Virus record (IMG/VR): IMGVR_UViG_3300002835_000954 | Span: 1 to 26,097 of that record | Strand: one strand, 5' to 3' | Length of the DNA: 26,097 nucleotides | Source: a virus | In this document: piece after piece, positions 5,607 through 8,898 of the stretch | Layout of the letters: each line of letters starts with the position of its first letter | Numbering within the stretch: the first letter of the stretch is position 1 | Made by a program: the position numbers and the translations under genes | Notes under the pieces: generated by a model | What the model was told of the DNA's origin: nothing | The model's database searches: none | The model's input: the letters and a program-made list of their open reading frames with translations, nothing else

Positions 5607-5933
5607 ATGACACAGGATTTATTTATAGAGACAATTTTAGCTTTAAAGAAGCAAGTCCGGCACGACACCAAGTTTGCTAAGAAGATAAGCAAGTTGTTTA
5701 CTGACTGCCAGATGATTGGTTACAACAACGATGTTTTAATTGAGCAGATGGTAAAGGTATTGGCTGAGCTTACTGGGGACAAGAGTGATTGGATTGGGTA
5801 TTATGTTTGGGAGCTTAGCTTTGGTGATGATTGGCTGGAGGGTGCTGTAATGTTTGGGGGTAAGGACATAAAGCTCCAAACGCCCACAGACTTGTGGAAT
5901 TTGTTGCAAATGGAAAAAGGGGTAAAGCCATGA
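5607..5933 (+). CDS. Hypothetical protein (108 aa)
   Basis: A 108-residue acidic protein of unknown family, mostly helical in appearance, with an aromatic-rich middle (SDWIGYYVWELSFGDDW). An AAAGGAA just before the ATG is the nearest thing to a Shine-Dalgarno site in this region. It starts 13 bases after the terminator's T-run, so it probably depends on leakage through that terminator. The next gene downstream was originally the one whose start remains at 5993; the cassette array now intervenes. Confidence 0.6.
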   Translation: MTQDLFIETILALKKQVRHDTKFAKKISKLFTDCQMIGYNNDVLIEQMVKVLAELTGDKSDWIGYYVWELSFGDDWLEGAVMFGGKDIKLQTPTDLWNLLQMEKGVKP

Positions 5934-5958
5934 CTTATAAACCATTCATTAACCCTAC

Positions 5959-5975
5959 TTTGTGCCTTTAATGAC
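5959..5975 (+). repeat. 17-bp repeated intergenic element, copy 1
   Basis: TTTGTGCCTTTAATGAC occurs exactly here and at 10599-10615, both times 17-46 bases before a gene start and with TTATAAA 22-26 bases upstream. It is probably a protein-binding or promoter site, as it does not match the TAnnTTTG consensus. Confidence 0.5.
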
Positions 5976-5992
5976 GCAAAAATGATGCAAGT

Positions 5993-6025
5993 ATGAGCCA
6001 ACTAATTCTAAAAATAAAAATATGA
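5993..6025 (+). pseudogene. Vestigial gene start left of the cassette array
   Basis: ATG at 5993 begins MSQLILKIKI and stops after ten codons. Its first 20 bases match the start of the intact gene at 6956 in 19 positions (ATGAGCCAACTAATT identical, then C for T, then TAAAA). It is what remains of the original 5' end of that gene, displaced by the array. Confidence 0.7.
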
Positions 6026-6201
6026 ACAAAGAACTTTTAAAATCAATATGGACGTTAATCGGAATAGTGATATGGCTATTACTATTTACAAAAACATTCT
6101 ATGAATGGACACAAGGTAAGCAACCAGATAACTTTACTGTGATGACGATATTGTTAATAGCCATATCACTTGAAAGTAAATTTAATAGCAAAAAGCAGTA
6201 A
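6022..6201 (+). CDS. Small membrane protein in the cassette array (59 aa)
   Basis: A 59-residue protein with two hydrophobic stretches: residues ~9-27 (IWTLIGIVIWLLLFTKTFY) and a shorter one at ~40-50 (VMTILLIAISL), with a short polar loop between them and a basic tail. Probably an inner-membrane hairpin with both ends in the cytoplasm. Very AT-rich compared with the phage genes. The stop is 10 bases before the attC-like core at 6212. Function unknown; small membrane proteins are common cargo of integron cassettes and may include toxins or anti-phage factors, but nothing here shows that. Confidence 0.55.
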   Translation: MNKELLKSIWTLIGIVIWLLLFTKTFYEWTQGKQPDNFTVMTILLIAISLESKFNSKKQ

Positions 6202-6211
6202 TTTTTATTGC

Positions 6212-6293
6212 TTATAACGTTTTGCGGCTTGTGGTTCGTTAGCGAAGCAAAGCCTTGTGTGGTCGGGCTAATGACCACAAACCGCTGTTATGT
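6212..6293 (+). repeat. attC-like recombination site 2 (best preserved)
   Basis: Long imperfect hairpin. Left arm GCGGCTTGTGGTTCGTTAGC (6224-6243) pairs with GCTAATGACCACAAACCGC (6267-6285) with few mismatches and an extra base, an asymmetry typical of attC. Outer cores are TTATAAC (6212-6218) and GTTATGT (6287-6293). The total of 82 bases is within the usual attC range. Confidence 0.7.
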
Positions 6294-6334
6294 GCTGGGC
6301 GGTTTATCAGCACTAAATTTAATTTAAAAACGAA

Positions 6335-6550
6335 ATGACAGAAAAAAAAAAGGCACTTGAACTGATTGCTAAATATCAGGCACTTGCAATGTTAAAAGAT
6401 TTTGGCGGAATGGACTTTGAAATTGCCAGAGGTTGTGCAATTATAGGGTTAGACGAAATGCTTGACCATATAGAAGTACCAAGCCATATTTACCAATGGT
6501 TCAAACAAGTGCGTTTTGAATTGGAACGTGTCGAGCAGCCTTGCACATAA
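6335..6550 (+). CDS. Small phage-type protein in the cassette array (71 aa)
   Basis: A 71-residue helical protein. The pattern KALELIAKYQAL... followed by ARGCAIIGLDEMLDHI and ...WFKQVRFELERV resembles a common uncharacterised family in Bacteroidota phages and prophages that reads AKECALIAVDEIL...YW.EVK.EIE. The function is unknown. The TAA stop (6548-6550) lies inside the attC left core ACATAAC, a close gene-to-site packing seen in true cassettes. There are 40 bases of leader between the cassette boundary and the ATG. Confidence 0.6.
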   Translation: MTEKKKALELIAKYQALAMLKDFGGMDFEIARGCAIIGLDEMLDHIEVPSHIYQWFKQVRFELERVEQPCT

Positions 6551-6676
6551 CGGTTCGGGTATTGCCGAAGGCAGGGATTTGAAAGACAAATGTTTCAACC
6601 TTGCACAAATGCCCAATAGAAGTACAAATGATTAATTAACCGAGAATGCCCTGCTTTTGGCAATACCTTGTTAGGT
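6543..6676 (+). repeat. attC-like recombination site 3
   Basis: Left arm from GCACATAAC through GGTATTGCC (6557-6566 region) to GCAGGG. Right arm CCCTGC, TTTTGGCAATACC, then GTTAGGT (6670-6676), which fits GTTRRRY exactly. The stem is about 25 pairs with a ~70-base variable loop, total about 134 bases, a long-type attC. Confidence 0.65.
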
Positions 6677-6703
6677 GCAGTGCTTTTCACAAATTTTAAA
6701 AAG

Positions 6704-6913
6704 ATGACAATAAGAGAATTAACAAAGCAACTTTTAGATTTCAATCCAGATGCACAGATTAGGGTTAGAAATGGTAACAACCCATCAACTGATTTTGTAT
6801 TGGCGTGGGGTGAACTTAGTGAAAACGGAATGGACAAAACAAAACAATCGGTTGTTACCATTTTTGTTGAAACTGATGAAGATAATATTGAATCTGAACA
6901 GGTGTCTTCATAG
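6704..6913 (+). CDS. Small conserved protein in the cassette array (69 aa)
   Basis: A 69-residue protein starting MTIRELTKQLLDFNPDAQIRV, the hallmark of a widespread small family (T[VI]KELI..L..FDPDAEVRV) found in phages, prophages and bacterial genomic islands, with no established biochemical function. ATG 6704 is chosen over an upstream TTG at 6668, which falls inside the attC core. The rest is acidic. The stop is 3 bases before the next attC left core (6917-6926). Confidence 0.6.
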   Translation: MTIRELTKQLLDFNPDAQIRVRNGNNPSTDFVLAWGELSENGMDKTKQSVVTIFVETDEDNIESEQVSS

Positions 6914-6916
6914 CAT

Positions 6917-6926
6917 TGCACCTAAC
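6917..6926 (+). repeat. Broken attC-like site (left core only)
   Basis: TGCACCTAAC, exact complement of the third cassette's start GTTAGGTGCA (6670-6679). No matching right arm follows before the phage gene at 6956, so the site is truncated or the array end was lost on insertion. Confidence 0.55.
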
Positions 6927-6955
6927 TATCGTATAGGCGAAATAAACGAGATATT

Positions 6956-7186
6956 ATGAGCCAACTAATTTTAAAATTTAACCTTCCCGAAGAAGAAGCC
7001 GAGGCTAACTTTGCCCTAAAAGGCGGGGAGTATTTCTTGATACTGCATGACCTTTACCAAAAGCTGAGAGATATTACCAAGTACGGCAATAACCCCTTCA
7101 ACGGCAGAACAGCAAGCGAGCAAGAGATGATACTTGCCGAGCAGATACGGGAGTACCTTAACGAAAAAGATTTTAAGGATTTATGA
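6956..7186 (+). CDS. Conserved small phage protein (76 aa)
   Basis: A 76-residue acidic protein, MSQLILKFNLPEEEAEANFALKGG..., which matches a family I recognise as common in phage early regions (LILKFNLPEE..EA..ALKG..Y...L...D..LR...KYG), often near replication and recombination genes. The function is unknown. Its first 20 bases are duplicated at 5993, on the other side of the cassette array, so this copy has been re-started behind the insertion and has lost its original upstream region. It ends in ATGA, coupling it to the next gene. Confidence 0.7.
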   Translation: MSQLILKFNLPEEEAEANFALKGGEYFLILHDLYQKLRDITKYGNNPFNGRTASEQEMILAEQIREYLNEKDFKDL

Positions 7187-7440: not shown

Positions 7441-7768
7441 ACATCAAATACAATTGGCTTGCGTCAAATACTTCAGGGCTGCGTTTCCCGACCTTTATTG
7501 CAACCTTTGGCATACCAATGGCCGAGCGATTGACAAACGAAACGGCGGCGTTCTAAAAGGCATGGGGGTAATTGCTGGCGTGCCCGACCTTTTGTTTTTT
7601 TACAAAGGCAAGTTACACGGCATTGAACTAAAGACCGCCAAGGGAACGCAAAGCGAAGGGCAAAAAGAATGGCAAAAGATGGCATTGATGCACGGGGGCG
7701 AATACCACATTGTGAGAACCGTTGAACAATTCGTACTTTTGATTCAGCAAACAATTCAAAATGGTTAA
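7424..7768 (+). CDS. VRR-NUC domain nuclease
   Basis: A 114-residue stand-alone VRR-NUC domain, a PD-(D/E)XK-type nuclease; family members cut branched or junction DNA. The expected residues are present: E6 in SVEHQIQ, D55 in GVPDLLFF, E68-x-K70 in GIELKTAKG, and Q80 in the following helix. The single-domain size is normal for phage members. It probably resolves recombination or replication intermediates before packaging, the role played by RusA or endonuclease VII in other phages. It overlaps the next gene by 8 bases. Confidence 0.85.
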   Translation: MPKSVEHQIQLACVKYFRAAFPDLYCNLWHTNGRAIDKRNGGVLKGMGVIAGVPDLLFFYKGKLHGIELKTAKGTQSEGQKEWQKMALMHGGEYHIVRTVEQFVLLIQQTIQNG

Positions 7769-8411
7769 GAACACGTTTATTGAAATAGTATCGCCGTTCA
7801 CAATGACCAGCGTTGAACGAATGGGTGCTTTGTACGATTCCCTTGAGTACATAAGGGCAAACAACATTCAGGGCGATTTTGTAGAATGTGGCGTTTGGAA
7901 AGGTGGCAACATTTTGGGAATCATGGAATACCTTGCATTTCACAAAATGACCGACCGAAAGGTGTTTTTGTACGATACGTTTCAGGGCATGACACCGCCT
8001 GAAGATATTGACAAAGACCTAAACGGCAGAAAGGCAGAAAGCATACTTGAAGACGTTATGTGCATTTCGCCAATTGATGAGGTTCGGGAAACGATAAGCC
8101 GTTCAAGTTTTCCATTGGTAAACGTAATTTTTGTTCAGGGCGATGTTTGCGTTACCCTTAATGGTGCAAAGTACATACACGAAAACAACTTAGCACTACT
8201 TCGGCTTGATACGGATTGGTATGCGTCAACCAAAAAAGAAATGGAGGTACTTTACCCTAAATTGAACTTTGGCGGAGTTTTGATTGTTGATGACTACGGG
8301 CATTGGAAAGGTTCGAAAACTGCGGTTGATGAATACTTTGAAGGGCAAGGCATATCGCCAAAAATTGAACAAATTGACTATACTGGAATCAAAATCATAA
8401 AAAATGGTTAA
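7761..8411 (+). CDS. TylF/MycF-type SAM-dependent O-methyltransferase
   Basis: 216 residues. The hallmark FVECGVWKGGN at 40-50 is the SAM-binding motif I. YDTFQGMTPP (71-80) and the RLDTDWYAST...MEVLYPKLNFGGVLIVDDYG segment follow, with D150, D177 and D178 in the metal-binding places of the TylF/MycF macrocin O-methyltransferase family. Those enzymes methylate sugar hydroxyls, so a glycan target is likely. Together with the glycosyltransferase-methyltransferase fusion elsewhere in this genome it may make a methylated sugar decoration on virion, cell surface or DNA. It overlaps its neighbours by 8 bases on each side with the same ATGGTTAA junction. Confidence 0.85.
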   Translation: MVKNTFIEIVSPFTMTSVERMGALYDSLEYIRANNIQGDFVECGVWKGGNILGIMEYLAFHKMTDRKVFLYDTFQGMTPPEDIDKDLNGRKAESILEDVMCISPIDEVRETISRSSFPLVNVIFVQGDVCVTLNGAKYIHENNLALLRLDTDWYASTKKEMEVLYPKLNFGGVLIVDDYGHWKGSKTAVDEYFEGQGISPKIEQIDYTGIKIIKNG

Positions 8412-8898
8412 ACTTGTAAAAATCGGTTCGGTTAAGGGAAACAGCCGTAACCCAAGATTTATTCGGGATGAGAAATTCAAAAAGCTGGTGGCTTCGCTTG
8501 TGGAGTTTCCTGAAATGGCTACTCTTCGCCCTTTAGTGGTCGATGAAAACATGACCGTACTTGGCGGCAATATGCGGCTAAAGGCGATGCAAGAACTGAA
8601 ATGGAAGGAGGTGCCCGTTGTAGTTGCCGAAGGTTTGACCGATGCCCAAAAAGATGAATTTGTTATCAAAGACAATGTGGGGTTTGGCGATTGGAACTGG
8701 GAGCAGTTGGCCAACGAATGGGATGCAGAAGAACTGACAAGGTGGGGGTTGGATATACCGGGCTTTGATGCCGAACTGCCCAACGATGAACCCGAAGAAC
8801 AAGACGCAAATAGCCTGATAGTCGAGGCCGATATGATAACCTTGGAAGACCTTTTCGATGAACTGAAAAGCCGAGGGTTTAATGTTTCAATGAAGTAA
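8404..8898 (+). CDS. ParB/Srx-type N-terminal domain protein
   Basis: 164 residues. Residues ~4-75 match the ParB N-terminal (sulfiredoxin-like) domain: NSRNPR..., LRPLVVDENMTVLGGNMRLKAM (54-62 is the nucleotide-binding GGNMRLKAM box), then WKEVPVVVAEGLT. The tail has the GFGDWNWEQLANEWD...LTRWGLD segment often found after this domain in phage proteins that are encoded next to terminase or DNA methyltransferases. The classical ParB DNA-binding helix-turn-helix is absent. Such proteins may act as CTP/ATP-dependent DNA-associated factors or nucleases; the role here is not known. Confidence 0.8.
   Translation: MVKLVKIGSVKGNSRNPRFIRDEKFKKLVASLVEFPEMATLRPLVVDENMTVLGGNMRLKAMQELKWKEVPVVVAEGLTDAQKDEFVIKDNVGFGDWNWEQLANEWDAEELTRWGLDIPGFDAELPNDEPEEQDANSLIVEADMITLEDLFDELKSRGFNVSMK

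Follow-up and report, generated by a model that had tools for sequence, protein, structure and literature searches.

How does a phage genome that encodes no integrase come to carry what look like integron cassettes, and are its attC-like hairpins genuine? The window analysed here is an entire IMG/VR viral record of 26,097 bp, and because it carries a 140-bp end repeat, the phage genome is either circular or terminally redundant. Between 6014 and 6955 lie three small ORFs (6022–6201, 6335–6550 and 6704–6913) with two hairpins between them. The initial annotation described this stretch as genes alternating with hairpins; the three genes and two hairpins are present, but the third core has no hairpin and the one upstream of gene 1 has been lost. 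The features of the window are as follows.

1804–2293, + strand: possible degenerate second cassette, two genes between GCTAACA...GTTATAGGG and CTATAAC
5992–6018, + strand: left flank (MSQLILKIKI), a truncated copy of the beginning of the phage gene at 6956
6022–6201, + strand: cassette gene 1, 59 aa, hydrophobic; upstream hairpin absent
6211–6294, + strand: attC-like site 1, core TATAAC ... GTTATGTG; 38.9 bits, E 2.9e-7
6335–6550, + strand: cassette gene 2, 71 aa
6544–6677, + strand: attC-like site 2, core CATAAC ... GTTAGGTG; 61.9 bits, E 1e-12
6704–6913, + strand: cassette gene 3, 69 aa, begins MTIRELTKQLLDFNPDA
6917–6926, + strand: terminal core TGCACCTAAC, where the array meets non-cassette DNA; complement of GTTAGGTGCA at 6670–6679
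6927–6955, + strand: right flank TATCGTATAGGCG..., possible degenerate attI remnant; missing in array-less relatives

An in-house attC finder that demanded a stricter core failed to detect the true sites of the window, and a covariance model was therefore used. This model, R1, was built in this analysis and is distinct from the IntegronFinder model; it rests on 16 sites from other phages and from Bacteroidota contigs, with the window and its close relatives excluded. The training set has 25 pairs, 16 of them with changes on both sides, and 94% of its cells are paired as compared to 38–48% when slid, a control that leans favourable because the training sites were chosen partly by arm complementarity. 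R1 recognises one attC type only, and this type is specific to Bacteroidota (8 of 8 genome contigs with the attC pattern); the viral contigs are metagenomic, and phage hosts were assigned from attC type. Run unfiltered on the 26-kb window, R1 returned exactly two significant sites, 6544–6677 and 6211–6294, both on the + strand, and nothing else below E 0.1. Single-strand folding is ambiguous on its own, with site 1 reaching z −3.3 on the bottom strand and site 2 reaching z −4.8 on the top strand.

The cassette ends are complementary to the core of their own attC in two pairs of 9–10 nt, GTTATGTGC at 6287 with GCACATAAC at 6543 and GTTAGGTGCA at 6670 with TGCACCTAAC at 6917. Both pairs are exact, as the initial annotation stated, and dinucleotide shuffles of 5900–7000 predict 0.12 such 9-mer pairs where two are observed. 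Two further readings from the first inspection held: the right core GTTAGGT fits GTTRRRY (GTTATGT of site 1 falls outside it), and the stop of gene 2 (TAA, 6548–6550) sits within the core GCACATAAC at 6543–6551. No hairpin follows the terminal core, and other phage arrays end likewise. The tyrosine recombinase profile PF00589 found no match anywhere in the window, and none in 13 further phage records. The window thus contains at least two neighbouring attC sites and no integrase, the two properties of a CALIN, which bears out the proposal of an integrase-less attC array in a phage; the opposite outcome, no model match and hairpins scattered as ordinary repeats, did not occur. Pfam and PHROGs assigned no function to the cassette genes, which probably encode small accessory proteins, and Rfam and tRNA searches of the window gave no match.

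The model and folding checks proposed for this array had also been proposed for 1800–2310, and there neither gave support. The site at 1804–1890 scores 7.2 bits (E 9, not significant), that at 1791–1883 is at noise level, and folding of 1801–1890 gave nothing; an attC identity for 1804–2293 is not supported. The two genes of this region (1901–2104 and 2085–2282) include one, at 1901, that matches a PHROG lacking an assigned function, and the region is also present in the relative L060 (99%). Where the window has a single TTGCTAAC repeat (1800–1812), L060 (4834–4910) has two, separated by about 60 additional bp; the difference looks like gain or loss of a unit between two cores. At 2455–2521, copies of GGCACTAAACTAAAATAGTGG in either orientation form a palindromic cluster, conserved in L060, that is a possible regulatory or replication site.

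The initial annotation had proposed comparing related phages with and without the array, and both kinds were found. Array-less relatives (L009, L011–L014, L036, L037, L048 and L060) have flanking DNA about 87–97% identical to the window and a single copy of the flanking gene start; the array is present in the window, L008, L039, L047 and L051. Relatives sharing the array have differing downstream alleles, and its spread among close relatives can be by plain homologous recombination. The left flank (5992–6018) is a direct repeat of 6955–6981 (89%) that occurs as a single copy in array-less relatives, and its stop TGA overlaps the ATG of gene 1. We considered this 21–27-bp flanking duplication as a target-site duplication and set it aside, since IntI-type insertion is not expected to create one and a single illegitimate crossover is sufficient to explain it. 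That crossover would have joined an empty and a filled phage at a microhomology of TAAAA, removing the first hairpin and duplicating the phage gene start in one step. Two other variable places in the window have no attC: a TylF-like methyltransferase gene at 7761–8411 is missing from several relatives, and other relatives carry several hundred extra bp at 8770–8898.

Each of the three genes recurs singly in unrelated phages, and the homology breaks at core sites. Window DNA 6009–6218, containing gene 1, matches at 94% identity a cassette of phage L092 that has its hairpin and, next to it, an integrase. Window DNA 6283–6546, with gene 2, is 95% identical in phages L053 and L054; the homology stops at both cores, and between those cores there is no recognisable hairpin. 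In L053 (4165–5260) the core that closes each small gene leads into TCGCTYATTCGTGAAC... instead of a hairpin, and window gene 2 sits there between two TCGCTYATTCGTGAAC-type stretches. Hairpin 2 with gene 3 is also found in L058 (98%) and L059 (88%), with 99% and 77% amino-acid identity of the gene 3 protein, respectively. Queried by tblastn with the three cassette proteins, a set of 50,697 phage records gave no match. A search for the same cassettes in chromosomal integrons had been proposed; for gene 3, the one gene searched, a scan of 84,980 species genomes yielded no confirmed relative, and it is in other phages that the same genes were found. Given the attC matches, the lack of an integrase, the array-less relatives and the singly recurring cassettes with core-bounded homology, we take the window array to be a real CALIN in a phage, as judged from sequence comparison.

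A cassette had initially been read as a gene plus its downstream attC, and the comparison gives instead an upstream hairpin plus a gene. Across 88 pairwise matches between phage cassettes, the TAAC core marks the start of homology, with the median match beginning 1 nt ahead of it; 4 of the matches extend at least 25 nt upstream of the core and 28 extend at least 25 nt past the hairpin. These alignments point to a mobile unit that consists of the upstream hairpin and the following gene, from one TAAC core to the next, and with such a unit the genes are inverted relative to attC polarity. Pooled over all sets, about 108 of 111 phage cassette intervals have their gene on the model strand as compared to 0 of 62 chromosomal intervals, where about nine intervals of the second set repeat the first and intervals within one array are not independent. 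The first set gave 25/26 for phages and 0/23 for chromosomes, the exception being an ORF antisense to gene 3 of L059; the second gave 27/27 and 0/39; and the third, phages found via the integrase, gave 65/67, with a similar ORF on the expected strand in both exceptions. All three phage exceptions are ambiguous, and orientation completely separates some two dozen phage contigs from about 16 genomes. The standard polarity, in which the gene precedes attC on the same strand, was seen neither in the window nor in those roughly 108 phage intervals. Phage cassette genes are short, with a median length of 85 aa in one set. In one set 16 of 65 cassettes have an ORF that begins inside the attC hairpin (L058:3815–3949, L165:3734–3867, L097 and others); one hairpin that occurs repeatedly codes for an N-terminus that is hydrophobic and signal-like (MKTKTSIYHRTFAFAYVLLCLVLFSSCSG), and differing genes can follow the same hairpin.

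The standard gene-then-attC order is found in Flavobacterium NRK F7 (L128), where R1 finds the same hairpins on the opposite strand from the genes and the first cassette ends behind the integrase are GTTATGCAAC / GTTGCATAAC. In the Flavobacteriaceae chromosomes G002, G015, G020, G036, G017 and G039 (loci L128 and L169–L173), attC arrays adjoin a recombinase of the same IntI-like family, which occurs in either orientation to the array. Chromosomal relatives of the phage integrase, 44–47% identical, were present in 5 of the 8 genomes first found. Across 61 Flavobacteriaceae the association between integrase and attC is modest (35/3/14/9, Fisher p 0.006), partly because R1 sees one attC type; for 11 integrases, read by eye, attC sites lie within 25 kb and always on the attI side. 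These recombinases are probably missed by standard integrase profiles.

Phages carry members of this integrase family as well. In L092 a 267-aa tyrosine recombinase, P0001, lies directly behind the last cassette, and a scan found its relatives at 37 viral loci, most of them 71–100% identical, on contigs of 6–430 kb. P0001 resembles IntI (TIGR02249, PDB 2a3v) in that it can be aligned on either side of the additional domain and has the tyrosine recombinase catalytic residues (R, H..R, H and Y, conserved in array-adjoining phage integrases); unlike IntI, it falls below the TIGR02249 cut-off (155 bits against 265), and the best PDB matches are XerA/XerC-like. The IntI additional domain itself was not found in P0001, which aligns in two pieces with the intervening region unmatched. 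The alignment of the chromosomal relative P0002 with IntI4 is likewise split in two, and at the place of the additional domain P0002 has about 22 residues against the 64 of IntI4 (179–242). These alignments argue for a phage integrase family without most of a domain that has been described as necessary for integron recombination (PMC9668308).

Phage cassettes are not the rarity that was first supposed: in two targeted scans, dozens of viral contigs proved to have arrays, and many of these contigs encode an integrase themselves. Integrase-linked phage arrays have up to 12 sites on one strand, nearly all just upstream of the integrase, and in L199 attC sites flank it on both sides. The large viral contigs L163 (180 kb), L164 (219 kb) and L165 (127 kb) have up to 15 attC sites per array, and in G011 and G013 there is more than one cluster. 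Some 30 other phage contigs combine an IntI-like tyrosine recombinase with, where examined, a conserved attI. At 24 phage loci a conserved TAT.NTATATA lies to the right of the core and the left side is taken by 24 distinct cassette ends, and this conserved side with differing left flanks identifies the site as attI; it is located 49–55 bp before the first aligned intI codon. The window flank TATCGTATAGG resembles the phage attI weakly, with 6927 ranking 8th of 1256 AAC sites by the attI matrix, a match too weak to be counted as proof.

Having no integrase and no convincing attI, the window is read as an integrase-less member of this group, and it is likely that its phage carries a phage-adapted three-cassette array worked in trans. 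Either a co-infecting phage or the host would supply an IntI-like tyrosine recombinase, which would cut (at TAA^C) and join the units at the core using the folded single strand of attC, and the cassette genes would be read from upstream phage transcription without an integron promoter. On balance we also favour the broader view that Bacteroidota phages have their own integron lineage, with a XerA-like recombinase, attI and inverted cassettes, and that small phages use the same pool; the inversion would let phage transcription read the genes toward the integrase. Counting against the reading of the window as an array worked in trans are its lack of an integrase and of an intact first hairpin, the weak attI match, a spread among close relatives that plain homologous recombination could explain, the hairpin-less gene 2 of L053/L054 and the site 1 core outside GTTRRRY.

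Could the array instead be an ordinary fragment of a chromosomal integron, acquired by illegitimate recombination and without phage-specific meaning? The attC type is that of Flavobacteriaceae chromosomes, the left end looks illegitimate, and it has been proposed that CALINs enter phages through illegitimate or off-target homologous recombination (PMC9892861). Such an origin is nevertheless unlikely, given a gene orientation opposite to that of every chromosomal interval, the short phage genes, and cassettes all three of which recur in phages while gene 3 has no confirmed relative among the species genomes. The hairpins might also be islands of homology rather than current recombination sites, with phage homologous recombination shuffling the genes between them, as the differing downstream alleles of array-sharing relatives and the hairpin-less exchange of gene 2 in L053 would allow. 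We regard this as quite improbable, since junctions fall at the core base and not anywhere in the hairpin, compensatory pairing is strong, and 24 phage loci join unlike cassettes to a conserved attI beside an integrase.

That the hairpins only look like attC, being chance structures or functional ones such as terminators or REP-like dispersed repeats, was rejected on finding core-exact unit exchange between unrelated genomes. The hairpins do come after genes, and some chromosomes have single attC-like matches, yet core complementarity, the specificity of R1 in the window, and arrays that reach about 15 sites and in many cases end at an integrase make such mimicry extremely improbable. The phage-adapted array worked in trans is the reading that we retain.

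CALINs and integrons in phages have been published, with 17 CALINs among 10,705 phage genomes and recombination by IntI1 of 5 of 6 phage attC sites tested (Qi 2023, PMC9892861). The window array resembles these in being a cluster of attC sites without an integrase in a phage genome; inverted genes, a common phage integrase family and a shared attI are not reported in the parts consulted. R1 found no match in Polaribacter phage P12002L of that study. With the sedentary integrons of Vibrio type and of Flavobacteriaceae (L128) the phage arrays share attC hairpins with paired R boxes, core-complementary cassette ends, and an integrase and insertion site at one end; in those integrons the gene precedes attC, whereas in phage cassettes it follows with opposite polarity. 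Within the partial literature passages covered, we found no report of consistently inverted phage cassettes.

Integrons have so far been studied as bacterial devices. Use of the attC bottom strand is held to place a captured gene in a readable orientation (PMC2727003), and phage arrays that are consistently reversed, if confirmed, would make this rule directly testable. Complete integrons are hardly seen in Bacteroidetes with standard tools (PMC9024848), and a recombinase family of this kind may explain their near-absence from integrase searches. If the reading is correct, phages would gain a route for exchanging small accessory genes.
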